Shown one piece after another: positions 9,093 through 30,813 of a stretch of 31,260 nt of DNA. This DNA comes from a virus, in the IMG/VR virus record IMGVR_UViG_3300047354_000692, positions 1 through 31,260 of that record; one strand, written 5' to 3'. Position numbers and translations under genes: made by a program. Below the pieces are notes generated by a model, which saw only the letters and a list, made by a program, of their open reading frames with translations, made no database searches and was not told the DNA's origin. The first letter of the stretch is position 1; each line of letters starts with the position of its first letter.

Positions 9093-9878
9093 ATGCCGGG
9101 TATTTTAGATCTCGATACATATAATCGATCATTACTTTTCGCGAAGTTATCAAAGTATGCTTATTATAACATCAATAGTGCAAAAAAGCAAGCGAAAAAA
9201 TTAGGTTTTACAACAACAGAATTTTATGACCGGGACGGTGCTCAAGCATATAGATTCCAAAATAAAACAGATATGGTTATAGCTTGTAGGGGAACACAGC
9301 CTACACAGTATAGTGATATACAAGCAGACTTAAAGGCAATGCCTGTCGTTGCTGAAACTGTGTCCAGAGTGCATAGAGGTTTTAAGGACGAAGTAGACGA
9401 CTTATGGCCTATGATACTAGAAGATATACAACGTAAAGCAAATGCAAAGAAAACTGTTTGGTTCTGTGGACATTCGTTAGGTGCAGCTATGGCAACTATT
9501 ATGGCTAGCAGATGTTATCATCATGAAGGTATTCCAAATCCGTATGAGCTTTACACTTACGGTAGTCCAAGAGTAGGATGGACCAAGTATTGTACATCTT
9601 TAGGCGTCAGACATATTAGATGGGTAAACAATAACGATATAGTCACAAGAGTTCCATTAAACATAATGGGATATAGACACCATGGCATGGAACACTATCT
9701 AAACACTTGGGGCAATGTTCGTACACTCACAGGATGGCAAAGAACTAAAGACAGGTTTAGAGGTATTTGGAGAGGTATCAAAGTAATGAAAGTTGATAGT
9801 TTCTCAGATCACTCTATTGATGCTTATGTAATGCACATTAAAAAAGCCGCTGAAGGTATGGAAACACCGCAAGTTTAG
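9093..9878 (+). CDS. Class 3 lipase-like alpha/beta hydrolase
   Basis: The 261-aa protein has the lipase (class 3) layout: an oxyanion-side [15 protein letters not shown] (about 66-80), the nucleophile elbow [14 protein letters not shown] with Ser128, [15 protein letters not shown], a likely catalytic Asp in NNDIVTRVP, and His in [11 protein letters not shown]. There is no signal peptide, so it acts in the cytoplasm or is released at lysis. The ribosome site TAAGGAGGAAAG is strong and the gene follows a late promoter and hairpin. It may hydrolyse host lipids late in infection. The stop overlaps that of prs on the opposite strand by four bases. Confidence 0.85.
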
Positions 9879-10807
9879 TCAAACAGTGAACTTACGCTTT
9901 CTTCGTTAGTAACTCTACGAATAGCTTCACCGAATAGTGTTCCAACACTTACTTCACGCAATTTCTTAAGTTTACTAAAGTCCCTAGTGTTGATACTGTC
10001 AGTAACTACTAGTTCATCAAGTACACTCTTTTCTACACGTTTAACTGCTTCTCCACTTAGCACTCCGTGTGTAATATAAGCTCTAACACTTAATGCTCCT
10101 GCATCCATAATAGCTTGTGCCGCACCACATAGTGTTCCTCCGCTGTCTACAATGTCATCTACTAGAATAGCATGCTTGTCTTTCACATCACCAATTAGTG
10201 CCATTACTTCACTAACACCTGCTTGTGGTCTACGCTTATCAACGACAGCAATATCTCCATGAAACATATCAGCAAACTTTCTAGCACGAACTGCACCGCC
10301 TGCATCAGGCGAAACAAAGACAGTGCCTTGATTAACATTAACATGTGATCTAATATCATCTGCAAATACGATACGGCTTGTTAAATCGTCCACTGGAATA
10401 TCAAAGAACCCCTGTATTTGTCCTGCATGTAAATCCATTGTAAGTATTCTATCTGCACCAGCTGTTGTAATTAAATTAGCAACCAACTTAGCAGTAATAG
10501 GTGTACGACTTGCACTCTTACGATCTTGACGAGCATAACCAAAGTAAGGAATAACTGCTGTAATACGACTAGCACTACTACGCTTGGCAGCATCAATCAT
10601 TATAAGCAATTCCATTAAACTATCGTTTACAGGAGTTGATGTTGAGTTACAAATAAAAACATCTTCTCCCCTTATATTTTCTAAAAACTCTACACTGGTT
10701 TCTCCGTCCGCAAAGTTACTTACTTTAGCAGGAACTAATGTGGCAAAACAGTGTTGTGCGATTCTATCAGCTAACTCCGGATTCGCATTGCCAGTTATTA
10801 TCTTCAT
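9875..10807 (-). CDS. prs: Ribose-phosphate pyrophosphokinase (PRPP synthetase)
   Basis: The protein makes PRPP from ribose-5-phosphate and ATP, the entry point to purine, pyrimidine and NAD synthesis. Visible signatures are [41 protein letters not shown] (ATP-binding loop region), [32 protein letters not shown] and the PRPP-binding loop [14 protein letters not shown]. Length (about 310 aa) is normal for bacterial class I enzymes. The frame can be extended to a TTG at 10813; the ATG at 10807 (MKIITGNAN), just after the TGA of the ugd-like gene, is preferred. It shares a transcript with that gene from the sigma-70 promoter at 11636-11664, so it should be an early gene. Confidence 0.93.
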
Positions 10808-10809
10808 CT

Positions 10810-11610
10810 TCAAGTGTCACCCTTCCTTACGTTATTATTATATTGAATAGCTTCTCGTATCAACGACAAGTCTATATCAAAGTCCTGTGCTGTTTTTAGA
10901 ATTGCTTGGGTGTCTTTGGGAAAACAGTGACCTCCGAAACCCCGTTCTGATGTTACTCTGCTGTGGCTATCTCCTATTCGGTTGTCGTCTGTTATTAAGG
11001 GTATGACTGCTTCGTGATCAACTTCAGCGGCTTTGCATAAATCATAAACTTGATTAAAGAAAGCAACTTTTGTAGCTAAAAAGCTGTTACGAAAATATTT
11101 AGCTAATATCAAATCTCTTGGATGTGCGTGTTTAATCTTTACTACTTTGTTGGGTCTGATCATTACTCTTTCTAATATTCTTTCCCAAAAGTAATAGTGT
11201 CCACCTCCCATATAAAAAGTTTCAGTAGCAAGCATATCTTCTACTGCATGTTCTGCTCTTATAAACTCAGGGGAGAATGTAATTGTATGTGTTGGGAACA
11301 AACTTTCTATTTGTTCCCAACCTTCAAGACTGATTGTGCTTTTGATTAGTACCGGAGTTTTTGGATCTGTATCTGTGAGTACATCAAAGACATTTGACAT
11401 ATCACATTCACCAGTTTCTGCTTGCGGAGTACTTACGCAGATTATTACTCCTTCAGCGTTTGTGTCACTGATTTTTAATCCGCATGTAAGATCTTTTCCT
11501 AGTATTCTATAATACTCAGGATCAACTATTTTGGTAGTTACACCACACTCTTTTAGATAGGCTTCGACAGCTCTACCAACATGGCCATACCCTGCAATAG
11601 TTATTCTCAT
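10810..11610 (-). CDS. Short UDP-glucose/GDP-mannose dehydrogenase-like protein
   Basis: The N-terminal Rossmann motif ([18 protein letters not shown]), VIICVSTPQ, an [15 protein letters not shown] segment and the catalytic cysteine loop [11 protein letters not shown] are characteristic of the UDP-glucose/GDP-mannose dehydrogenase family. At 266 aa it is far shorter than the usual 390-450; the C-terminal UDP-sugar-binding domain is absent. Such short versions occur in marine phages. It may oxidise a nucleotide sugar as a dimer with altered binding, or act on another substrate. It overlaps no other gene at its 5' end and is coupled to prs. Confidence 0.85.
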
Positions 11611-13890: not shown

Positions 13891-13943
13891 TGTGGCCGTA
13901 CACTGACGAAGAATCAGATTGGCTAGATGATAAAAAGAGTTGA
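13890..13943 (+). CDS. Possible 17-aa acidic leader peptide before AOX
   Basis: ATG 13890 to TGA 13941-13943 encodes MWPYTDEESDWLDDKKS. It overlaps the DUF1127 stop (TAATG) and the first 17 bases of the oxidase gene. Because the oxidase start lacks its own clear ribosome site, translation of this peptide may deliver ribosomes to it. Confidence 0.45.
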   Translation: MWPYTDEESDWLDDKKS

Positions 13944-14520
13944 CATCGCCGATAGTATAGCGTTTAGGCTTACAATGATGTTTAGATGGTTTGCAGATAC
14001 TTTTTTTGCAAAGCGTTATGGACACAGAGCAGTAGTACTTGAAACTGTTGCCGGAGTACCAGGTATGGTAGCAGGCATGTGGAATCACTTACGTAGCCTA
14101 AGAAAGATGCAACCTGATGAGCGAGGCTGGATTAAGACTTTACTAGACGAAGCTGAAAACGAACGAATGCATTTAATGATCTTCATTGAAATTGCAAAAC
14201 CAAATATCTTTGAAAGATTATTAATTGCATTTGCTCAGCTTGTTTTTTGGCACTTCTATCTAGTTTTATACATTTTCTTTCCAGGCACTGCACACAGGAT
14301 GATAGGATACTTTGAAGATCAAGCTGTTATTTCATACACACAATATCTAGATGAAATAAAAAGTAGCAAGGTTGAAAATATTCCTGCTCCGCAAATTGCA
14401 ATAGATTATTACGGATTGAAAAAAACTGCAAAGTTAAGTGATGTAATTAAAAAAGTAAGAGCTGACGAGCAAGGGCATGCAGATGTTAATCACGGAATGG
14501 CTGACCAAATAAACAAATAA
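13927..14520 (+). CDS. Alternative oxidase (cyanide-insensitive ubiquinol oxidase)
   Basis: The 197-aa protein has every di-iron ligand of the AOX family: Glu39 in VLETVAGVPG, Glu79 and His82 in NERMHLM, Glu130 in YFEDQAV, Glu181 and His184 in RADEQGHAD. It oxidises ubiquinol and reduces oxygen to water without pumping protons, as a monotopic inner-membrane protein. The NERMH form fits AOX rather than cyanophage plastoquinol oxidase. It lacks the long plant N-terminus, as bacterial forms do. It is the last gene of the coupled small-gene operon. Its likely use is to keep carbon oxidation and ALA or TCA flux going, or limit oxidative stress, when the host respiratory chain is disturbed. Confidence 0.93.
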   Translation: MIKRVDIADSIAFRLTMMFRWFADTFFAKRYGHRAVVLETVAGVPGMVAGMWNHLRSLRKMQPDERGWIKTLLDEAENERMHLMIFIEIAKPNIFERLLIAFAQLVFWHFYLVLYIFFPGTAHRMIGYFEDQAVISYTQYLDEIKSSKVENIPAPQIAIDYYGLKKTAKLSDVIKKVRADEQGHADVNHGMADQINK

Positions 14521-16665: not shown

Positions 16666-17859
16666 TCACTTTATAACCTTAACCAATGCGTCTACTAAAT
16701 CGCTCATCATAGCGTCAGTGTGCAAAGGAGTTGGTGCGATCCTTAACCTTTCTGTTCCTTCTGGAACAGTTGGGTAGTTAATGGGTTGTATATAAATCCC
16801 ATATTCATTAAGCAACTCGTCACTAATTTCTTTGCAACGCTTTGCATCTCTTATCATTACAGGAACTATGTGTGTGCTTGCAACATCTAGCACTTCTATG
16901 TCAACTTCTGCTAACATAGACTTTAACTTAGATGCACGTTCTTGATGTTGAACACGCAACTCATTATGATCCTTTAAATATTTAATTGCGGCTAAGGCAC
17001 CAGCACAAATCACAGGACTCATGCTGGTAGTGAATATAAATCCACTAGCTACTGATCTGATTGCGTCTATGACAATCCCTTCACCAGCTATGTAACCGCC
17101 TTGTACTCCAAACGCTTTGCCTAAAGTTCCGTTGACTATATCAACTACACCTTCTTGTCCGACTTCTTCTAGCTTACCGGCCCCTGATTCCCCGTACAAG
17201 CCTACAGCATGTACTTCGTCTAGATATGTTATGGCCCTATACTTTTCGGCTAGCTCGCAAACACCTTTAATTGGACTTACGTCACCATCCATGCTATACA
17301 CAGATTCAAATACAATACATGGTATCATATCGTTAGCTACGCAATCTTGCAATTTTTCTTCTAAGTCGCTCAGATCATTGTGCTTCCATCTTGCCTTAGG
17401 AGCACCACTATGTCTTATACCTTCTATCAGGCTGGCATGGTTCATGTCGTCACTTAAAAACATAATGTTGGGAATGATTTTGCTTAGAGCAACCAGTGTC
17501 CACTCATTGGCAACATATGCACTTGTATACAATAAAGCACTTGAAGTACCATGCAATTTTGCAAGCTCATGCTCTAGTGCTACATGGTAGTGCGAAGTAC
17601 CGCCAATGTTTCGCGTACCACCTGATCCACTTCCTGTTTGATCTAAGGCAGTATGCATTGCATCAATGACGACTTTATTCTGACCCATACCGAGGTAATC
17701 ATTACTACACCAGTTTACAATATTTTTTATTGCATAAGGCCCGTACCAAATTGATTTAGGAAAGTCACCGCGTTCACGAAGTATATCGTTAAACACTCTG
17801 TACCTACCTTGCTGTTTTAGGTCCCGTAGAACCTGTTCAAATGGATCCTTGTCTATCAT
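16666..17859 (-). CDS. hemA: 5-aminolevulinate synthase (ALAS, Shemin pathway)
   Basis: ALAS condenses glycine with succinyl-CoA to 5-aminolevulinate, the first step of heme synthesis in alphaproteobacteria. The 397-aa protein is full length and shows NWCSNDYLGMGQN, GSGSGGTRNIGGTSHYHVAL, a DEVHAVGLYG segment near residue 214, and the PLP lysine in NGTLGKAFGVQGG (Lys248), followed by FTTSMSP. Residues around SVYSMDGDVSPI and the ALAS-type TRNIGGTSH favour ALAS over the related KBL and AONS enzymes. The ATG lies five bases after the box CTTAAATA, so the mRNA may be leaderless. In a phage this could raise heme supply or drain glycine and succinyl-CoA; which, is unknown. Confidence 0.93.
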   Translation of the reverse strand: MIDKDPFEQVLRDLKQQGRYRVFNDILRERGDFPKSIWYGPYAIKNIVNWCSNDYLGMGQNKVVIDAMHTALDQTGSGSGGTRNIGGTSHYHVALEHELAKLHGTSSALLYTSAYVANEWTLVALSKIIPNIMFLSDDMNHASLIEGIRHSGAPKARWKHNDLSDLEEKLQDCVANDMIPCIVFESVYSMDGDVSPIKGVCELAEKYRAITYLDEVHAVGLYGESGAGKLEEVGQEGVVDIVNGTLGKAFGVQGGYIAGEGIVIDAIRSVASGFIFTTSMSPVICAGALAAIKYLKDHNELRVQHQERASKLKSMLAEVDIEVLDVASTHIVPVMIRDAKRCKEISDELLNEYGIYIQPINYPTVPEGTERLRIAPTPLHTDAMMSDLVDALVKVIK

Positions 17860-18622: not shown

Positions 18623-19453
18623 ATGACGCAACTAATATCGCCGAAGAAGTTTACAAACACCGTTGACCTTTTAAGGTCATTTTTTTTGGACAAAGGATTT
18701 TTAGAAGTCCATACGCAGAATAGGCTTAGTATACTAGCCGCATGCGAAGATCCATTTAATGTAGCAACATATAATTACGCAGGCCAAGTTTGGCCATTGC
18801 CGCAAACAGGCCAGATGTGGCTAGAACATGAATTATTAAGTAGCCCCGATAGTAAGGGGTTTTTTTGTGTCTCCACTTCCTATAGACAAGAACCAAACGC
18901 TATTCCGGGTAGACACGATATAATATTTCCAATGTTTGAATTTGAAATGCCAGGTAGTGTTGATGATCTTAAAGCAATGGAGTATGAACTATGTGAGTAC
19001 TTGGGCTTTGATGCACTAACAGAAAAAACATATAGAGAATGGCAACAGCATTGGGGTATAAGTGCAGACACTGAAATGGATGCAAGTCACGAACTAGCAA
19101 TGGAGATGAACTTTGGTAGTTGTTTGATTACAAACTTTCCAGAGCTAACATCACCTTTCTGGAACATGGCTAGAAACGATGATGGCAATACAGCAAAGAA
19201 AATGGATGTTATACTAGGCGGTATGGAAACTATTGGATCAGCAGAACGCTCATGCGATGTTGATATGATGCGTGATACATTCCATAGTATTGTAGATGGA
19301 GAGTATAGCGAATTACTATACAAACTATTTGGCAAAGAACGTGTAGAAGCAGAGCTTGAAAAGTTTTTAGAGTTTGACTTTTTTCAAAGAGTAGGCGGAG
19401 GTATTGGTATTACACGTATGATACCTGCACTAGAAAAGATCAACAAGATATAA
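18623..19453 (+). CDS. AsnRS-like class IIb aminoacyl-tRNA synthetase catalytic core without anticodon-binding domain
   Basis: The 276-aa protein is a bare class II core. Motif 2 is STSYRQEP with Arg88 and a later MFEFEM (103-109), and motif 3 is VGGGIGITRM with Arg265. Between them NDDGNTAKKMDVILGGMETI then GSAERS (about 186-210) corresponds to the NDDGKTVAAMDVL...GGSQRE stretch typical of asparaginyl-tRNA synthetases, so AsnRS is the closest relative I can see (AspRS and LysRS are the wider class). Normal AsnRS is about 430-470 aa and starts with an OB-fold that reads the GUU anticodon; that domain is missing, and the usual QRE reads AER. Ribosome site AAAAGGAAAAGAA. The gene lies six bases before a GUU-anticodon tRNA, so joint function is likely. 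Alternatives are amino-acid activation or protein modification, as for EpmA. Confidence 0.8.
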   Translation: MTQLISPKKFTNTVDLLRSFFLDKGFLEVHTQNRLSILAACEDPFNVATYNYAGQVWPLPQTGQMWLEHELLSSPDSKGFFCVSTSYRQEPNAIPGRHDIIFPMFEFEMPGSVDDLKAMEYELCEYLGFDALTEKTYREWQQHWGISADTEMDASHELAMEMNFGSCLITNFPELTSPFWNMARNDDGNTAKKMDVILGGMETIGSAERSCDVDMMRDTFHSIVDGEYSELLYKLFGKERVEAELEKFLEFDFFQRVGGGIGITRMIPALEKINKI

Positions 19454-19459
19454 GAATGA

Positions 19460-19559
19460 TCTGGGGTGGTGAAATGGTAGACACGCACGGCTGTTAACCG
19501 TGTGGTAAGTAACTCGCAAAGTATTTACCGTGGAGGTTCGAGTCCTTCCCCCAGAGCCA
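19460..19559 (+). tRNA. Mosaic tRNA, anticodon GUU (Asn), long variable arm, CCA encoded
   Basis: A complete cloverleaf of 100 nt: acceptor TCTGGGG/CCCCAGA; 3-bp D stem GTG/CAC with loop AAATGGTAGA, as in leucine tRNAs; anticodon stem CACGG/CCGTG with loop CTGTTAA and anticodon GTT (19493-19495); T arm GGAGG-TTCGAGT-CCTTC with one G-U pair; discriminator G and genomic CCA (19557-19559). The variable region is 29 nt with an 8-bp stem (GGTAAGTA with TATTTACC). Standard tRNA-Asn is class I with a short variable loop, so the anticodon loop and G73 are Asn-like while D arm and variable arm are Leu/Ser-like. It lies six bases after the AsnRS-like gene and is presumably cotranscribed. Confidence 0.93.
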
Positions 19560-19571
19560 ACTAAATACTAT

Positions 19572-19642
19572 ACGTTCATCCCATAAAGGGACGGAAGTAG
19601 CACTAGCGAAGGAACGCACTTTAACCGCAAGGGAGAGGTGTT
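19572..19642 (+). promoter_or_regulatory. Glutamine riboswitch (glnA / Downstream-peptide type)
   Basis: The core CGTTC (19573-19577), a small TCCC/GGGA hairpin, then ACGGAAGTAG and GAAGGAACGC (closing P1 by GAACG, 19612-19616) matches the glutamine aptamer consensus in order and spacing. A purine-rich ribosome site (GGGAGAGGTG) and an ATG follow at 19643. In the Downstream-peptide class, glutamine binding forms a pseudoknot that controls access to the ribosome site of a short peptide gene, exactly the arrangement here. Only 13 bases separate it from the tRNA, so it is probably on the same transcript. The pseudoknot partner was not worked out by eye. Confidence 0.88.
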
Positions 19643-19729
19643 ATGAATACTTACATGCTCTGGTGCTTTAAACGTGCCATCCGCAAAATGCATGAGAACA
19701 GAATAAACTTTATATTATCTAAACGTTAA
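19643..19729 (+). CDS. Riboswitch-controlled 28-aa basic peptide
   Basis: ATG 19643 to TAA 19727-19729 encodes MNTYMLWCFKRAIRKMHENR followed by INFILSKR. It is basic and amphipathic, and sits two bases after the riboswitch ribosome site. Peptides behind this riboswitch class are short and variable; in cyanobacteria, glutamine riboswitches also control small inhibitors of glutamine synthetase. A role in blocking host nitrogen control is therefore possible. It overlaps the stop of the minus-strand gene by four bases. Confidence 0.7.
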   Translation: MNTYMLWCFKRAIRKMHENRINFILSKR

Positions 19730-20333: not shown

Positions 20334-20671
20334 CACTCATAACTTTCGCCAGTTTCACGAAAGAAGTTTTCACTCCAAAACGCTTTGTCATCTATCCAAA
20401 TATCGTAGTTCTCTTTTTCACCTACGCTTAGTTCATGGAACTTTGCACCCCATTTTACTAATTGGTTATTTGTTAGATTGTAATAGTCTACTCCACTAAC
20501 ACAACCTCTAGCTGTCATATATTTAATTGTGTGTCCTGCGTCAAATAGTGCATTTACTTTTGCAATACGATCTGGCATTGGTATATGATTAGCATAGTCT
20601 TTTTTGCCACCGCTGTCAGGTATAATTACTTCTTTACAGATGGTGCCATCAATATCAATTACGTACTTCAA
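20333..20671 (-). CDS. HAD-superfamily phosphatase-like protein
   Basis: Motif I is YVIDIDGTICKE (nucleophile Asp6 and acid Asp8), motif II is YMTARGC, and motif IV is DIWIDDKAFW. At 112 aa it is a minimal, capless HAD fold, close to the phosphatases found with polysaccharide genes and in many phages. Substrate unknown; sugar phosphates are an obvious candidate because it lies directly after PEPCK, with an ATGA overlap. Confidence 0.85.
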   Translation of the reverse strand: MKYVIDIDGTICKEVIIPDSGGKKDYANHIPMPDRIAKVNALFDAGHTIKYMTARGCVSGVDYYNLTNNQLVKWGAKFHELSVGEKENYDIWIDDKAFWSENFFRETGESYE

Positions 20672-21852
20672 TTCAATAATCCTTCCAAAGTTTGTAGTAC
20701 TTGCTCACTGTTATCAGCTCTTCCTGTAACAATAGCATCTTTAACACATTGTCTAGTAAACTCTAACGGAAACCTTGCTCCGTCTTTGTCCATACCTGTG
20801 TTAACTAGATAGACATTAGCTTTATGTGTGTCTATTTTATCCATTAATAAATCGCTATATTCAGAAACTGCCCTAGGCATAAAGGGCGAACCATAGCAAG
20901 GACTAAACAAAGGTTTGATTTCGTTTGTTCCTGCTTCTGTTCCTGGCATTTGACTAGTGTATCCTGTTTCAAAAAACCTACGCACTGTGTTGCCGCTTAT
21001 TTTACTAATAGGTGGAAACATGCCTTTGGCATCCATTGTTAAAAAGAAAATGTTAGTAGGGTGATCAAAATCTGTTGTGTCATATGCATTTTCAACAAGG
21101 TTTAAAGGATAACTTAGCCTAGCATTAGCGGCGCCTGGGTTTTCTTCAACCAAACAATTGTTTGACCTTGCTAGCTCTACTGCATTAAAAATAGTTGGAT
21201 GTGTTTCAGGTGTTAGCCCTTCGCTCTTAGCATAACACCCTGTTTCTATCATATTAACGCCTTCGTAGTTCCATGCTATTTCGTCATCACCAATTAGTTT
21301 GTAATCAGGATCGCTAGACAATGTAGTTTTACCAGTGCCACTAAGACCAAACATAAGATTAGTACTGTCCTTGTAAGTAAATGCACTACAATGCATAGGA
21401 AGTACTTTATGTTCTGGTAATTCAAAACTTACAATACCAAACACGCCTTTCTTAATTTCTCCTAAGAACGTAGTGCCTGCAATTAGCATTACATGTTCGT
21501 CTAGATGTACGTGTATTTTAGGCTTTGACATTTCAATGTCTGTGTTATGTAGTATTGTCCAGTCAGCTGTATATTGTAATGGGTTATCAACCACAGGAAA
21601 CATATTGCGTACAAATTGTGCATGCCTGTCGTCATTTGTTTCTACTCTAAAACAAAGGCCGCAAGTATAAAACACAAGATTATGATTGTATTCTAATTCA
21701 TACATATCGTTATGGAAGTCTTTAAAGTCTTGCTCATTACCAATCTTATTATACTTAGGCCTAGTAAGATCTAATGCTTCAGTACGATGTCCAAAAAAGT
21801 ATTTGTTCTCCGGACTTCTACCTGTCGGGTGTGTCGTTATATTAATATTCAT
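20668..21852 (-). CDS. pckA: ATP-dependent phosphoenolpyruvate carboxykinase, shortened
   Basis: PEPCK converts oxaloacetate and ATP to PEP and CO2, the first committed step of gluconeogenesis. Catalytic elements are complete: TGRSPENKYF (Arg12, oxaloacetate binding), GEIKKGVF (Lys134/Lys135), MHCSA (His154), P-loop GLSGTGKTTLS (169-179), LIGDDE (Asp189/Asp190), NARLSYPL and a late ARFPLEFTR arginine. At 394 aa it is well short of the usual 520-540; about 50-60 residues are missing at the N-terminus and about 80 at the C-terminus, with small internal trims. The gene overlaps GAPDH by 11 bases and the HAD gene by four. A streamlined but probably active phage version. Confidence 0.92.
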   Translation of the reverse strand: MNINITTHPTGRSPENKYFFGHRTEALDLTRPKYNKIGNEQDFKDFHNDMYELEYNHNLVFYTCGLCFRVETNDDRHAQFVRNMFPVVDNPLQYTADWTILHNTDIEMSKPKIHVHLDEHVMLIAGTTFLGEIKKGVFGIVSFELPEHKVLPMHCSAFTYKDSTNLMFGLSGTGKTTLSSDPDYKLIGDDEIAWNYEGVNMIETGCYAKSEGLTPETHPTIFNAVELARSNNCLVEENPGAANARLSYPLNLVENAYDTTDFDHPTNIFFLTMDAKGMFPPISKISGNTVRRFFETGYTSQMPGTEAGTNEIKPLFSPCYGSPFMPRAVSEYSDLLMDKIDTHKANVYLVNTGMDKDGARFPLEFTRQCVKDAIVTGRADNSEQVLQTLEGLLN

Positions 21853-22813
21853 TTATTAATCCTATATGAGAAGCTGTATCGGCCATTCTATTACTGAATG
21901 CCCATTCGTTGTCGTACCAGCATAATACTCTAACTAACTTCCCACAAACAAGTGTACTGTCGGCTGCAAAGATACAACTTTCGTTTGTAGTATTAAAGTC
22001 CATGCTTACTAATGGTCTAGTTTCAAAACCAATAATTCCTTTCATTTCATTTTCGCTTGCTGTTTTTACAATATCATTTACTGTATCAACATCAACATCT
22101 GCTTCGCTATAAAAGTGTAAGTCAATACAACTTACATTCGGTGTAGGTACTCTTATAGCACTTCCAATAATTTTCCCTTCCATTTCAGGTAGTACCGACT
22201 TAAGAGCCTTAGCGGCTCCTGTTGTAGTTGGTATCATACTCATTGCGGCCGCCCTAGCACGATATAAATCATCATGCCTCCTATCGATTGTAGCTTGGTC
22301 GCCTGTGTAGCTATGAATTGTAGTCATTGAACCACGTATGATTCCTAAACTATCATTTAAAACTTTTACAATTGGGGCAAGGCAGTTTGTTGTGCAACTT
22401 GCACTACTAATGATACTATCTTTTACTGATATATCATTATGATTAACACCATAAACAACTGTACGGTCTACATTCTTTCCCGGCGAACTTATGAGAACAG
22501 TCTTTGCACCGTTTTGAAGATGTACACTAGATTGATTCCCATCTCTAAACTGCCCTGTGCATTCTAACAAAACATCAACACCTTTCCAATTTAATAGATT
22601 AATATCCCTTGTGTGTGAGTATGTTGTAGTGTCTTTTAGTTTGCCCTTCCATCTGCCATGCACACTATCAAAATTTAACAAATGATTGTTTACATGTTCA
22701 TCGCCTGTGGCGTTTATTCTAACTAGTTCAAGGTCGTCTCTTTCGTCTGTGATGATTCGGGCTAGGCAACGACCTATCCTTCCAAAACCATTTATTCCAA
22801 CTTTTGTTGTCAC
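21842..22813 (-). CDS. gap: Glyceraldehyde-3-phosphate dehydrogenase
   Basis: Full-length (323 aa) GAPDH with VGINGFGRIGRCLAR, the catalytic SSASCTTNCLAP (Cys140), His167 in TTIHSYTGDQ, RRHDDLYRARAAAMSMIPTTTGAAKA and the C-terminal WYDNEWAFSNRM. The start is GTG at 22813, directly after the aldolase stop. At the end of the second strand the sequence is VRINATGD, with Ala35 where NAD-specific enzymes usually have Asp binding the adenosine ribose; this may allow NADP use, common in anabolic enzymes. It links 1,3-bisphosphoglycerate and GAP, between PEPCK and aldolase in the pathway and in the operon. Confidence 0.95.
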   Translation of the reverse strand: MTTKVGINGFGRIGRCLARIITDERDDLELVRINATGDEHVNNHLLNFDSVHGRWKGKLKDTTTYSHTRDINLLNWKGVDVLLECTGQFRDGNQSSVHLQNGAKTVLISSPGKNVDRTVVYGVNHNDISVKDSIISSASCTTNCLAPIVKVLNDSLGIIRGSMTTIHSYTGDQATIDRRHDDLYRARAAAMSMIPTTTGAAKALKSVLPEMEGKIIGSAIRVPTPNVSCIDLHFYSEADVDVDTVNDIVKTASENEMKGIIGFETRPLVSMDFNTTNESCIFAADSTLVCGKLVRVLCWYDNEWAFSNRMADTASHIGLINEY

Positions 22814-23608
22814 TTATGTACTCGCTTCTGTTATATCCTTTATGTTCATGCTCAGAGTCATATCAAATTCTACATCTGTTTGATGATGAAACAAACCTTC
22901 ACTTAGGGCTCTACTAAAACTTGCAGTCATATTATCATTTTGTGCAAGTCGACGACATGCTTCCTCAGTAGAGTATCCTCCACTTAGACCAACAACTGCA
23001 TGTACACTTTTATGTCCTATAAGGTCTTTATACATATTTGGTTGTTCAGGTAGCGTTAATTTAAGAATACATTTACCATCAAATTCATCTAAACGTTTCT
23101 TAAGTCCGTGTAGCAAGGCTATCTCTAGTCCTTGCTTGTGTTCATGTTCTATTGGAACTTCAGGCTCTACTATTGGCATAAGTTCCCATGCATGTATTTT
23201 TTTAGCTAGCTCAAACTGCTGATCCAATACACTGTCTACTATTTCTTGAGTCTTAACAATACTACGCATCTTAGTACCTACACAGCCTTTGGCAACTGCA
23301 TATGTAAGTATTTCATTAGTATCAAAGTCTTTAAGTGTACCGTCATCTGCACAGCCACTGTCTATTTTTAGATAAGGGTGAATACCTTTTTGTCTAAGAA
23401 TAGGAACCATACCTCTATCAACTGTGTCACGATACAAAATAGCCGCCCATATACTATCATTATTAAAGTCTGGAGAGCTTACCATACGCAAACGCATATC
23501 ATGTACTTTATCCATTTTATCTTCTTCAGTATACGCTTGTCCGTATCGTTCTAGTACTCCTCCTGTTGAACCACCACTGTGATCCATTGCGGCTATAAAT
23601 CTACTCAT
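22814..23608 (-). CDS. Class I fructose-1,6-bisphosphate aldolase
   Basis: The protein joins GAP and DHAP to fructose-1,6-bisphosphate through a Schiff base. It follows the bacterial Fda-type class I family end to end: FIAAMDHSGGSTGGVLERYG, VHDMRLRMVSSPDFN, GTKMRS, LMPIVEPEVPIEHEHK, CILKLTLPEQ (Schiff-base Lys183) and VVGLSGGYSTEEA with NDNMTASFSRAL. The start at 23608 (MSRFIAAMDHSGG) forms an ATGA junction with the HNH gene and has GGAG nine bases upstream, so it is preferred to ATG 23623. Length (264 aa) is slightly under the usual 295. No metal is required, which suits iron- or zinc-poor seawater. Confidence 0.93.
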   Translation of the reverse strand: MSRFIAAMDHSGGSTGGVLERYGQAYTEEDKMDKVHDMRLRMVSSPDFNNDSIWAAILYRDTVDRGMVPILRQKGIHPYLKIDSGCADDGTLKDFDTNEILTYAVAKGCVGTKMRSIVKTQEIVDSVLDQQFELAKKIHAWELMPIVEPEVPIEHEHKQGLEIALLHGLKKRLDEFDGKCILKLTLPEQPNMYKDLIGHKSVHAVVGLSGGYSTEEACRRLAQNDNMTASFSRALSEGLFHHQTDVEFDMTLSMNIKDITEAST

Positions 23609-24114
23609 ATATAAGTTCTCCATGCTTCATGTTTAATTGGCATATCTAATTGTTTTCTTTTTGCAACTAGATCATAATAAGTTGGGGTGTATGGTTTATT
23701 TTTAGGCTTCATACGTGTTTTATTACCTTTGAGGGTATTACATGGACTACAAGCGGCAACCATATTATCCCATTTAGTTTTACCGCCTAGGCTCAACGGA
23801 ATGACATGGTCCATGGTTAGTTCTTTTCTTGTGTGGGTAGTGTTGCAGTATTGGCAAGTGTATAAGTCGCGGATGTAAAGATTAGTTTTTGAGAATCTTG
23901 GACGGCCACGCCGTCGTTGCATTTCTTTCAGCATAACTACCGCAGGAACTTTTGTTTCCCAACTAGGACTGCTTACCATCCAATCATCGTACCAATCAAG
24001 TACAACTACCTTGTCCATCCATACATAAGTAATTGCTTCTTTCCAATTGATAACTGAAAGGGGAATGTAACTAGTAGGCTGTGCGTCTGCGTTTAATAAT
24101 AGTACATCACTCAT
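23605..24114 (-). CDS. HNH endonuclease-family protein
   Basis: The 169-aa protein carries a Zn-ribbon HNH domain: CQYCNTTHTRKELTMDHVIPLSLGGKTKWDNMVAACSPCNTLKGNK. The two CxxC pairs bind zinc and DHV-N-N positions form the nuclease centre. The N-terminal part (LLLNADAQPTSYIPLSVINWKEAI) is the type found in free-standing bacterial HNH proteins, not LAGLIDADG or GIY-YIG homing enzymes. In phages such proteins act in packaging, DNA breakdown or mobility. It is embedded by overlap in the sugar-metabolism operon, so it does not look like a recent insertion. Confidence 0.88.
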   Translation of the reverse strand: MSDVLLLNADAQPTSYIPLSVINWKEAITYVWMDKVVVLDWYDDWMVSSPSWETKVPAVVMLKEMQRRRGRPRFSKTNLYIRDLYTCQYCNTTHTRKELTMDHVIPLSLGGKTKWDNMVAACSPCNTLKGNKTRMKPKNKPYTPTYYDLVAKRKQLDMPIKHEAWRTYI

Positions 24115-28200: not shown

Positions 28201-28837
28201 TTGGGTAGAAACAGATCTAAGTGTTGAAAATGCATTTAGTGTAGACCCTCGAGAATATCTACGCAATCACCCTGAGTTTATACAAATAGCCACAGGCGGA
28301 GCAACTGTTTGGCAATGCGATCATAAATTATTACTTACAAATGAGTTTACTGCATTACTTAACAACTATTTTGAATGTAACATTACCGGTGTACTTGTAT
28401 TTCATAGGAAAGCAGGATATCAACACCCTGGTGCTCATATAGATGTAGATCCACAAGAGGGATTAAATCTTCCTGTAACTTTAAGCTACAACTGGGTACT
28501 AGAGGAAGATAATAATCCTATGGTGTGGTACAAGCCCTGGTGGGATCCTGAAAACATGGATCAAGCTAGCCAAGCGGCTAAAGGACAACTACCTTTCCCT
28601 GGGCTAGAATCTAGTAGCCCAGATGCAGGCTCAATGACTTATCAGGAAACACCTTGTGAACTACTAGAACGTGATAGCGAACACTGTCTTAGTCATAAAG
28701 TAGTTACTGTATGTAGAACTAACGTTCCGCACAATGTTGATATGATATCTGATAAAGATAGATGGTGTGTTACTGCCCGCAGTTGGGGCGATCAAGACCC
28801 TATGTGGTCACAAGTATATAACAGTCTAGTTAATTGA
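28193..28837 (+). CDS. 2-oxoglutarate/Fe(II) oxygenase-like protein, paralogue C (214 aa)
   Basis: The third paralogue: MRNWVETDLSVENAFSVD, FHRKAGYQHPGAHIDVDP (His82, Asp84), SYNWVLEEDNNPMVWYKPWW and RTNVPHNVDMISDKDRWCVTAR. Between the halves it has its own insertion (DQASQAAKGQLPFPGLESSS). Conservation of the metal triad and the Arg in all three copies shows that none is an obvious pseudogene. It converges on and overlaps the radical SAM gene by 12 bases at their 3' ends. Confidence 0.75.
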   Translation: MRNWVETDLSVENAFSVDPREYLRNHPEFIQIATGGATVWQCDHKLLLTNEFTALLNNYFECNITGVLVFHRKAGYQHPGAHIDVDPQEGLNLPVTLSYNWVLEEDNNPMVWYKPWWDPENMDQASQAAKGQLPFPGLESSSPDAGSMTYQETPCELLERDSEHCLSHKVVTVCRTNVPHNVDMISDKDRWCVTARSWGDQDPMWSQVYNSLVN

Positions 28838-30445
28838 TGCCCACAGATCGCTAAGGCGTCTGTTATGAGTACACATTTCAAAATGCTTGTTCCTAGCTAG
28901 ATCTAAAAAGCCTGGTCCTGCTCCGTTTTGTTTAAGTGCTTCAAGTGATTGAATTCCTTCAAGTTTACGTCTTATATAAGGTACAACTATTTCATTATGC
29001 TGTTGTCCATTATGAATATTCCACATCATAGGACGTAGCTTTAATTCTAATAGTTCTTTGGTGCTTTTAACAAAAGGAAGATAGTTTAACAACTGAAAAC
29101 TACTAACTAACTGTTCATTCCTACAAAAGTCACCATCTTGCCATTCTTTTACAAATTTGCTTGCTTGTCCTATGTCAGCCCAATCAGCTTCCCAATATAA
29201 ACTTTTGTTATCAAACTTATGTTGGGTTCCTCCTGCTTCTCTATCATAGTAACTATGTATTTCTGCTAGACGCACAGGATCGGTTATTTCTCTATAACCA
29301 TGCTGACGCCATTCTTTTGAAAAAACGCTAGTGGTTGCTGTATTGGTATCTAAGCTAATCTCTAGAGGCCACCAATCCCAATTTTGGTCTCCCCAATTTT
29401 CTCTAAGCCAATCTTCTGAACGTTGCCAACTGTCTGGAGTTTCATGTGGTAACCCTGCAATCATTCCACAACTGCCTCTGTATAACCCAAGCTCACCCAT
29501 CATATGCTCACGCATATCCATTAGACCTTGTTTGATACGCTTAGACGGCATACCTTTGGCTACTGCTTTACCTGCGTCATCGTTAAATGTTTCTACACCA
29601 TAAAAATGATTCCATACCCTAGCTCTACTGAGTAGTTTAAGCTGTTGTGGTTTCGCAATTGTTAGATCCATACGTATAAAGCAAGCAAAGTTTGGTTCAA
29701 AAGGTAGGCTCTGAACAACATCTCCTAACATTTCTAGCTTGCTTTCCCTATCGTTTAGTGTATCATCAGCTAGTATATAATTAGTAGTGCCAAAGCGTTC
29801 ATAGTTATCCATTAGCTCTGCACGTAGTAGTTCTTCTTCAGTTGATGTATCTTCTTTGACGCCTAAGAATGCATAGTTACAGTATTTGCAACGAAACTTA
29901 CACCCACGACTGAGTTCAACAGTTAGCATTTCATAGGGTTGAATATAGTCATCATCTCTATAGTCTATGCTGTAGTCACCTAGGTTCATAGCTTGATAGT
30001 CTGTGTTGCAGTCAATAAACAGCCCACCTAGAATATCTTTGCCTTTGGGTTTAGGACCATTGTTGAACAGCCAGTTTACTGTGTCAGGAACTGCTTTTTC
30101 AGCATATCCAAACAACATAGCATCCATGCCTAAGTCAAGCTGAAAGAACTGCTGTCCGCCTGCGATATATTTACGTCCTGGGTAAGCCTCTTTGAGTTGT
30201 TCTACAAACTGTTTTGCCCACCATGGTTTCATCCATGTGTAGGATATAGCAAACAATACAGTGTCCTCACCTACAATAGCATCAAGATACCTTCGTAGAT
30301 CAGCTTCTGGCCAGTCAGCTGCCCAATCAACCACAGTTGCCCTCCAGCCCATACTTTCTAGTTGATTAGCAAACCTATACGCACCTGAAGTTCTTCTTTT
30401 GATTTCTTGATTGCTGTTAAAAATTACACAGTGTTTTATATTCAT
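28826..30445 (-). CDS. Radical SAM protein with N-terminal Rossmann (B12-binding-like) domain
   Basis: The start is ATG 30445 (MNIKHCVIFNSNQEIKRR); the upstream in-frame ATG at 30556 lies across the divergent promoter region. Residues 1-130 form a Rossmann-type domain (TVLFAISYTWMKPWW, KYIAGGQQFF) without a clear DxHxxG cobalamin motif. The radical SAM core begins LTVELSRGCKFRCKYCNYAF with Cys182, Cys186 and Cys189 binding the [4Fe-4S] cluster. Length is 539 aa. The product modified is unknown. GATAAATA lies seven bases from the ATG, so the mRNA is likely leaderless. Its cluster may be supplied by the phage Nfu protein. Confidence 0.88.
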   Translation of the reverse strand: MNIKHCVIFNSNQEIKRRTSGAYRFANQLESMGWRATVVDWAADWPEADLRRYLDAIVGEDTVLFAISYTWMKPWWAKQFVEQLKEAYPGRKYIAGGQQFFQLDLGMDAMLFGYAEKAVPDTVNWLFNNGPKPKGKDILGGLFIDCNTDYQAMNLGDYSIDYRDDDYIQPYEMLTVELSRGCKFRCKYCNYAFLGVKEDTSTEEELLRAELMDNYERFGTTNYILADDTLNDRESKLEMLGDVVQSLPFEPNFACFIRMDLTIAKPQQLKLLSRARVWNHFYGVETFNDDAGKAVAKGMPSKRIKQGLMDMREHMMGELGLYRGSCGMIAGLPHETPDSWQRSEDWLRENWGDQNWDWWPLEISLDTNTATTSVFSKEWRQHGYREITDPVRLAEIHSYYDREAGGTQHKFDNKSLYWEADWADIGQASKFVKEWQDGDFCRNEQLVSSFQLLNYLPFVKSTKELLELKLRPMMWNIHNGQQHNEIVVPYIRRKLEGIQSLEALKQNGAGPGFLDLARNKHFEMCTHNRRLSDLWASIN

Positions 30446-30452
30446 TATGCAA

Positions 30453-30471
30453 TATTTATCGTCGATAAATA
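30453..30471. promoter_or_regulatory. Palindromic divergent late promoter pair
   Basis: TATTTATCG-T-CGATAAATA is a perfect 19-base inverted repeat. GATAAATA on the minus strand (30460-30453) serves the radical SAM gene and GATAAATA on the plus strand (30464-30471) serves the gene at 30499. The two boxes are only three bases apart, so simultaneous use would be sterically hard. Confidence 0.7.
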
Positions 30472-30498
30472 CTATACAACCAGCAAAGAGGTATTTTA

Positions 30499-30813
30499 AT
30501 GAGCGATGATACAACCACAGTAGACGAAGTAGATATTCAACAAGTAGTAGAAGCATTACTAAACATCTGTGGGCAGGCCGCAGAAATGCAACTAGACGAA
30601 GAAGCTAGAACTGCTATATACGACATGTGTGATGCTGTAGCGGCATTCCATGATATTCCACGTTTTGATGCTGTTATTGAACAAGACGAAGAAGGCAACA
30701 GTCGAGTCAGCTATTATGGCTCAGAGGTAGTAGCAAACATGGAAGACAAACCCAAAACCTCACTCAAACTAGTGGTCAACAACGGTGATGATGATCCAGA
30801 AACCATACACTAA
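30499..30813 (+). CDS. Small acidic phage protein (104 aa)
   Basis: MSDDTTTVDEVDIQQVVEAL starts an acidic, helical protein with a central AFHDIPRFDAVIEQDEEGNS and SYYGSEVVANM region and an acidic end DDDPETIH. AGAGGTATTTT upstream is the ribosome site. The last residues resemble the TTIH end of the next gene, and both have the same promoter-to-start layout, so the pair may be distantly related or share a C-terminal signal. Confidence 0.65.
   Translation: MSDDTTTVDEVDIQQVVEALLNICGQAAEMQLDEEARTAIYDMCDAVAAFHDIPRFDAVIEQDEEGNSRVSYYGSEVVANMEDKPKTSLKLVVNNGDDDPETIH

Follow-up and report, generated by a model that had tools for sequence, protein, structure and literature searches.

As a rule, a tRNA with a long variable arm is one for Leu, Ser or Tyr. 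The stretch of viral DNA analyzed here (31,260 nucleotides; called the window) encodes a tRNA that breaks this rule: its variable arm is long, and its anticodon is GUU, that of asparagine. Directly in front of it lies a gene for a small synthetase-like enzyme. Is this a genuine tRNA? Is the enzyme its partner? Which amino acid would it carry, and for what purpose? The features concerned are as follows.

18623 to 19453, + strand: mini asparaginyl-tRNA-synthetase-like enzyme of 276 amino acids, with a class II catalytic core and no OB anticodon-binding domain.
19460 to 19559, + strand: class II (long variable arm) tRNA with GUU, G73 and an encoded CCA, identified by Rfam RF00005, ARAGORN and covariation.
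19491 to 19497, + strand: anticodon loop CTGTTAA of this tRNA, with GUU at 19493-19495 and A at position 37 (19496).
19504 to 19529, + strand: variable arm, an 8-bp stem (19504-19511 with 19522-19529) followed by unpaired GT, from the fold and the pair counts of helix 4.

The Rfam tRNA model RF00005 matches 19460-19556 with 52.8 bits against a cut-off of 29, and ARAGORN recovers the identical 100 nucleotides as a tRNA. The acceptor stem UCUGGGG/CCCCAGA is paired at seven of seven positions and is followed by G73 and the encoded CCA, the D arm (GTGAAATGGTAGACAC) is Leu-like, and the variable arm (GGTAAGTA/TATTTACC) forms 8 bp in the minimum-energy fold, a long paired arm of class II. The anticodon stem, CACGG/CCGTG (5 bp), sets the loop as CTGTTAA and thus the anticodon as GUU. 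The ARAGORN label for this tRNA, Gly-ACC, disagrees with the stem and was rejected as a mis-placement; relatives are labelled at random and inconsistently, as Asp, Glu, Stop or Asn. GUU together with G73 is of Asn type. The molecule has neither the Leu anticodon and A73 of a tRNA-Leu nor the Ser anticodon and Ser-type arm geometry of a tRNA-Ser, two unpaired bases following its variable stem. Its folding energy by itself is unremarkable (z -1.6), and the case for a tRNA depends on conservation rather than on folding energy.

This conservation is extensive, and the class II GUU tRNA is a conserved phage RNA family with members in many marine phages. In an alignment of 42 distinct relatives, 97.7% of the pairs across all five helices are standard, whereas slid controls give about 50% pairing; 135 cells are changed on both sides, as against 27 in shuffles. 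Every stem is supported by compensatory changes, and the variable arm (helix 4) is paired at 91%. The original prediction had described a 100-nucleotide GUU tRNA with G73 and CCA, whose D arm resembles that of tRNA-Leu and whose variable stem has 8 bp, and Rfam, ARAGORN and the fold bear out each of these elements, so that the observation holds and is stronger than originally put. The relatives that it proposed to look for exist, with covariation among 42 distinct tRNAs, and its proviso that the variable arm might be an intron or a random, unconserved insertion is rejected by the pairing and the compensatory changes in them. A relaxed ARAGORN search for introns gave only noise.

Within the family, all 42 aligned sequences have G73 and U1-A72, while two other tRNAs (L196 and L202) have A1-U72. 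The variable stem and the T stem are separated by two bases in all 73 parsed tRNAs. The variable region ranges from 13 to 32 nt, and some enzyme-linked tRNAs (L194, L195, L237 and L239) have lost the long arm. Copies in cyanophages keep the cloverleaf and are devoid of the encoded CCA. A conserved additional base is present in the 5′ strand of the T stem (GCATGG/CCTGC) in the enzyme-linked tRNAs of three loci (L006, L007 and L011).

How regular is the association with the enzyme gene? It was approached from both sides. Through the upstream gene (18623-19453), 80 IMG/VR loci were found, and in 75 of the 77 evaluable close relatives the tRNA lies directly 3′ of the enzyme gene, being absent in L040 and L049. 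In three cultured cyanophages, P-SSM2, P-SSM5 and P-SSM7, the tRNA also follows directly upon this 276-aa gene, tRNA and gene being annotated ‘tRNA-Asn’ and ‘tRNA ligase’ (in the P-SSM2 record the tRNA annotation is about 2 kb from the ARAGORN position), and more distant phages have enzyme and tRNA arranged likewise. The second search used a DNA pattern, the Leu-like D arm followed by the Asn loop, and made no use of the enzyme. Among the matches listed, the enzyme gene is directly upstream, at a median distance of 20 nt, in 79 of the 79 evaluable loci out of 80; in the remaining one the tRNA is at the contig edge, and the contig is the same as that of L061, where the enzyme is present. Under a stricter filter the enzyme is upstream in 64 of the 64 loci listed (47 distinct tRNAs). 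A control pattern with the same D arm and a Leu UAA loop found the enzyme anywhere in the locus in none of the 69 matches listed (66 distinct). Among the matches listed, this strict linkage is one-sided: the class II GUU tRNA occurs only with the enzyme gene, and the gene is also found without the tRNA.

In the enzyme tree, tRNA linkage appears in several well-separated branches (the clade of the window and the P-SSM phages; the L093/L221/L204/L209 clade; L238/L242; L196/L202; L184; and L214), and the starred branches require at least nine gains or losses of linkage, on a quick tree with weak deep branches. With this proviso on the tree, the recurrence of the association speaks for a functional link. 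No conserved neighbor gene that would explain the pair was found in the phage loci.

The enzyme also occurs in other viruses. In the huge phages LR756501 and LR756508 no tRNA adjoins it, and their best class II matches are Leu. Two phages with the enzyme and no adjacent tRNA contain tRNA-like matches that measure 131-141 nt and include very long inserts (L296, about 1501-1641; L297, about 1501-1631). Part of L199-L258 is a large viral group, possibly giant viruses of eukaryotes, in which the enzyme has no adjacent tRNA and is often beside an HSP70 gene.

Behind the tRNA, the window continues with two further features.

19571 to 19620, + strand: glutamine riboswitch aptamer (Rfam RF01739, 52.7 bits), 12 nt downstream of the tRNA.
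19643 to 19729, + strand: 28-aa open reading frame behind the riboswitch, read from the sequence.

Besides the window and its copies, only two close relatives (L045 and L083) have the riboswitch behind the tRNA, and it is probably a neighboring unit and not part of the enzyme-tRNA pair. The Methylophilales phages Melnitz match at the riboswitch region, under a feature annotated SsrA. Elsewhere, the window encodes PEPCK, GAPDH and a class I aldolase-like protein consecutively (20668-23623), a gluconeogenesis-like cluster in a phage, as well as a PRPP synthetase (9875-10813), an alternative oxidase (13927-14520), a class I/II aminotransferase (16666-17859) and a B12-binding radical SAM protein (28826-30556).

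What kind of enzyme is linked to the tRNA? A PF00152 match spans nearly the whole 276-aa protein, which also matches PHROG 29758, annotated as of unknown function. Its AlphaFold2 model has a pLDDT of 94.7, and the nearest PDB fold is that of AsnRS in complex with asparaginyl-adenylate (1x54). The pocket motif of the family, QTGQMWLE, has the form found in AsnRS (QSSQLYLE) rather than in AspRS (QSPQLYKQ), with L67-E68 where AspRS has K-Q, and R88, R209 and R265 are essentially invariant in 160 sequences. L67-E68, R209 and the fold together constitute a class II core with an Asn-specific pocket. The OB domain is absent, and the score against the AsnRS equivalog TIGR00457 is 32.9 bits, far below the cut-off of 342.6. 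By sequence and predicted structure, what the gene encodes is an AsnRS catalytic core lacking the anticodon domain, with a pocket of AsnRS and not AspRS type. The tRNA-linked enzymes are unusually acidic, with a mean net charge of -19 versus -8 in cellular relatives, and have almost no residues peculiar to them, the invariant residues being common to phage and cellular enzymes. Because of these shared residues and this acidity, aminoacylation is treated here as putative.

The best explanation, to which we give an even chance, is a phage-private, asparagine-linked pair of enzyme and tRNA, used in Asn decoding or outside it. The mini-synthetase would probably activate asparagine and load the dedicated tRNA. 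Asn identity in bacteria resides in the anticodon and G73, and U1-A72, a determinant for GatCAB, marks tRNA-Asn for amidation (PMC9976931). G73 would also keep LeuRS off the tRNA, G73 of E. coli tRNA-Ser being listed as an element against LeuRS (PMC9976931). The long arm may hinder the full-length class II AsnRS and AspRS of the host, and an enzyme consisting of the core only would tolerate it. Such an exclusion is suggested because class II synthetases, AsnRS and AspRS among them, bind tRNA on the side of the variable loop. The two unpaired bases between the variable stem and the T stem, which we take to be Leu-type and not Ser-type geometry, would disfavor SerRS. The charged tRNA would then serve Asn codons during infection or have a use outside normal decoding, the latter being proposed because loop bases needed by the ribosome are often lost. 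The analysis demonstrates the tRNA, its conservation and strict linkage to the enzyme gene, the AsnRS-like core and pocket, and the loop pattern; that this enzyme charges the tRNA we infer, as we do the amino acid, the orthogonality of the pair and the purpose of the charged molecule. That the adjacent phage enzyme might charge the tRNA in a private system had been suggested beforehand, and the linkage of 79 of 79 against 0 of 69 among the matches listed, together with the AsnRS-type core, lends this suggestion good support. Several observations speak against a pair: GUU is conserved although the enzyme has no anticodon-reading domain; acidity and the near-absence of specific residues are unlike the trace expected of a new tRNA-binding role; cellular relatives, often in pyrimidine clusters, have no such tRNA adjacent or in the genomes examined; and the long arm is missing in the few linked tRNAs mentioned above.

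Is the tRNA used in decoding? GUU is invariant in the enzyme-anchored set except for L214 (GUC). Position 37 is mostly U in the family, A in the window and a minority, and sometimes C or G; position 33 is U in the window, C in L186-189 and L242, and A in L238. The tRNA-anchored set is uninformative on the conservation of GUU and U33 because the search pattern fixes both. As a control, all 74 other distinct tRNAs of the same loci, leaving out one listed family member, have U33 and a purine at 37, and almost all listed phage tRNA-Leu controls keep purine 37. The anticodon triplet is thus kept and the flanking bases on which ribosomes depend are not, which raises a sharp question: what reads this anticodon? 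The loop evidence leans against normal decoding, which is possibly weak or absent, and a non-decoding role, already envisaged in the original prediction, appears plausible, given that the family does not consistently retain U33 and purine 37. The window also encodes a Vut_1/YhhQ-type transporter (PF02592; 14958-15575), a family presumably linked to precursors of queuosine, which we take to modify G34 of GUN anticodons such as GUU.

A bolder form of the non-decoding role would be an orthogonal viral aminoacyl-tRNA system in which the class II Asn tRNA, charged with Asn by (or feeding) the AsnRS core, delivers activated asparagine to a pathway outside the ribosome, possibly the synthesis of pyrimidines; we advance it tentatively, as possible but rather improbable. 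The same loop can be read in the opposite way, and we think this unlikely: as a backup, the tRNA would read Asn codons after the host has destroyed its own tRNA-Asn, the altered loop resisting anticodon nucleases and the enzyme guaranteeing charging. A pattern of this kind, with altered bases beside the anticodon, has been proposed for phage tRNAs that resist nucleases (PMC10264068), GUU is preserved, and other phage tRNAs lie nearby. However, those other tRNAs of the same loci retain U33 and purine 37, altered U33 and pyrimidine 37 should harm decoding, and nuclease resistance alone requires neither a private enzyme nor a class II body.

Cellular relatives raise another explanation. The enzyme family is widespread, occurring in Patescibacteria, Dependentiae, Chlamydiae, Midichloriaceae, DPANN archaea and others, and also in the giant virus Pithovirus LCPAC304; among plasmids no homologue was found. 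The adjacent tRNA is absent at cellular copies, except in a few marine MAG contigs (L087, L088, L089, L093 and L126) that look phage-derived. A partner tRNA in trans was sought and rejected, the class II matches examined in 14 genomes being without exception tRNAs for Leu, Ser or Tyr; the copies of tRNA-Asn seen in cellular genomes have normal CTGTTAA loops. At about 14-16 loci, the enzyme gene adjoins homologues of pyrE, pyrF or pyrD (among them L096, L109, L111, L113, L119, L124, L135, L138, L146, L160, L161, L164 and L165). PyrB over the cut-off is missing in 13 of 14 such genomes, several of them incomplete MAGs, and so is CarB, each being present in 14 of 14 controls. A convincing PyrC-type amidohydrolase is missing in most of the 14 and present in all 14 controls, this broad family giving the weakest of the three results. 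Full-length AsnRS is found in 7 of the 14 and GatB in 11. An alternative pyrimidine route is possible in genomes mostly devoid of CarB and PyrB and often of PyrC; the ancestral activity may have been metabolic, and the pyrimidine-cluster setting hints at an undescribed enzyme activity.

Since asparagine and one carbonyl carbon contain the atoms of dihydroorotate, a metabolic role is conceivable: the enzyme would make a pyrimidine precursor from asparagine and, where the host forms Asn solely on tRNA, this asparagine would come from the special tRNA after charging by the host ND-AspRS and amidation by GatCAB. We consider this doubtful. The pyr neighbors, the missing PyrB and CarB and the invariance of U1-A72 in the 42-sequence set favor it, as does motif 3, GGGIGxTR, which we take to resemble that of AsnA. 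Against it, L196 and L202 have A1-U72; the sample of 14 genomes is small and includes incomplete MAGs, and Coatesbacteria retains PyrB; the GatB count is for cellular genomes with the enzyme gene rather than for hosts of the phages; some bacteria without pyrBC, such as Haemophilus, do without the enzyme gene; and we know of no precedent for the chemistry.

Very improbable is a role of the tRNA-like element as a 3′-UTR control element of the enzyme's own mRNA: it does lie about 20 nt behind the stop codon, but encoded CCA, U1-A72 and G73 are kept, as expected of a mature aminoacylated tRNA, and the cyanophage copies keep the cloverleaf though without the encoded CCA. At least as improbable is the earlier idea that Leu or Ser is placed at Asn codons through the host LeuRS or SerRS, for which the class II body, the Leu-like D arm and the reliance of SerRS on the long arm and G73 could be cited, but against which stand G73, invariant in the 42 aligned sequences and acting against LeuRS, the Leu-type spacing in 73 of 73 tRNAs and the strict linkage to an AsnRS-like enzyme.

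How does the phage-private pair compare with known systems? With bacterial tRNA-Asn (GUU) and AsnRS it shares GUU, G73, U1-A72, the enzyme core and the Asn-pocket residues, and it differs in the class II arm, the Leu-like D arm, the frequent U37 and the missing OB domain. The tRNA resembles tRNA-Leu in its D arm and in having two unpaired bases behind the variable stem; it differs in its GUU, its discriminator G instead of A, and the adjacent synthetase-like gene. Phage tRNAs proposed to evade anticodon nucleases have similar changes beside the anticodon, but are of another tRNA class, whereas the present tRNA is strictly linked to a synthetase-like gene (PMC10264068). AsnA and AS-AR (archaeal asparagine synthetase, 3p8t) are likewise stand-alone class II cores with Asp/Asn chemistry and no anticodon domain, and AsnA presumably has a similar motif 3; AS-AR matches the phage enzyme weakly, and the latter is linked to a tRNA gene. 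No description of the enzyme-tRNA pair was found in the open-licence literature. To our knowledge, a natural compact virus-encoded synthetase-tRNA pair, present in cultured cyanophages, would be the first of its kind and, if true, a new small orthogonal pair. In tRNA-Pyl/PylRS and the allo-tRNAs, a dedicated unusual tRNA is also paired with a dedicated class II synthetase; the phage pair differs from them in its sense anticodon GUU, its encoding by viruses, its class II arm and its AsnRS-like core.
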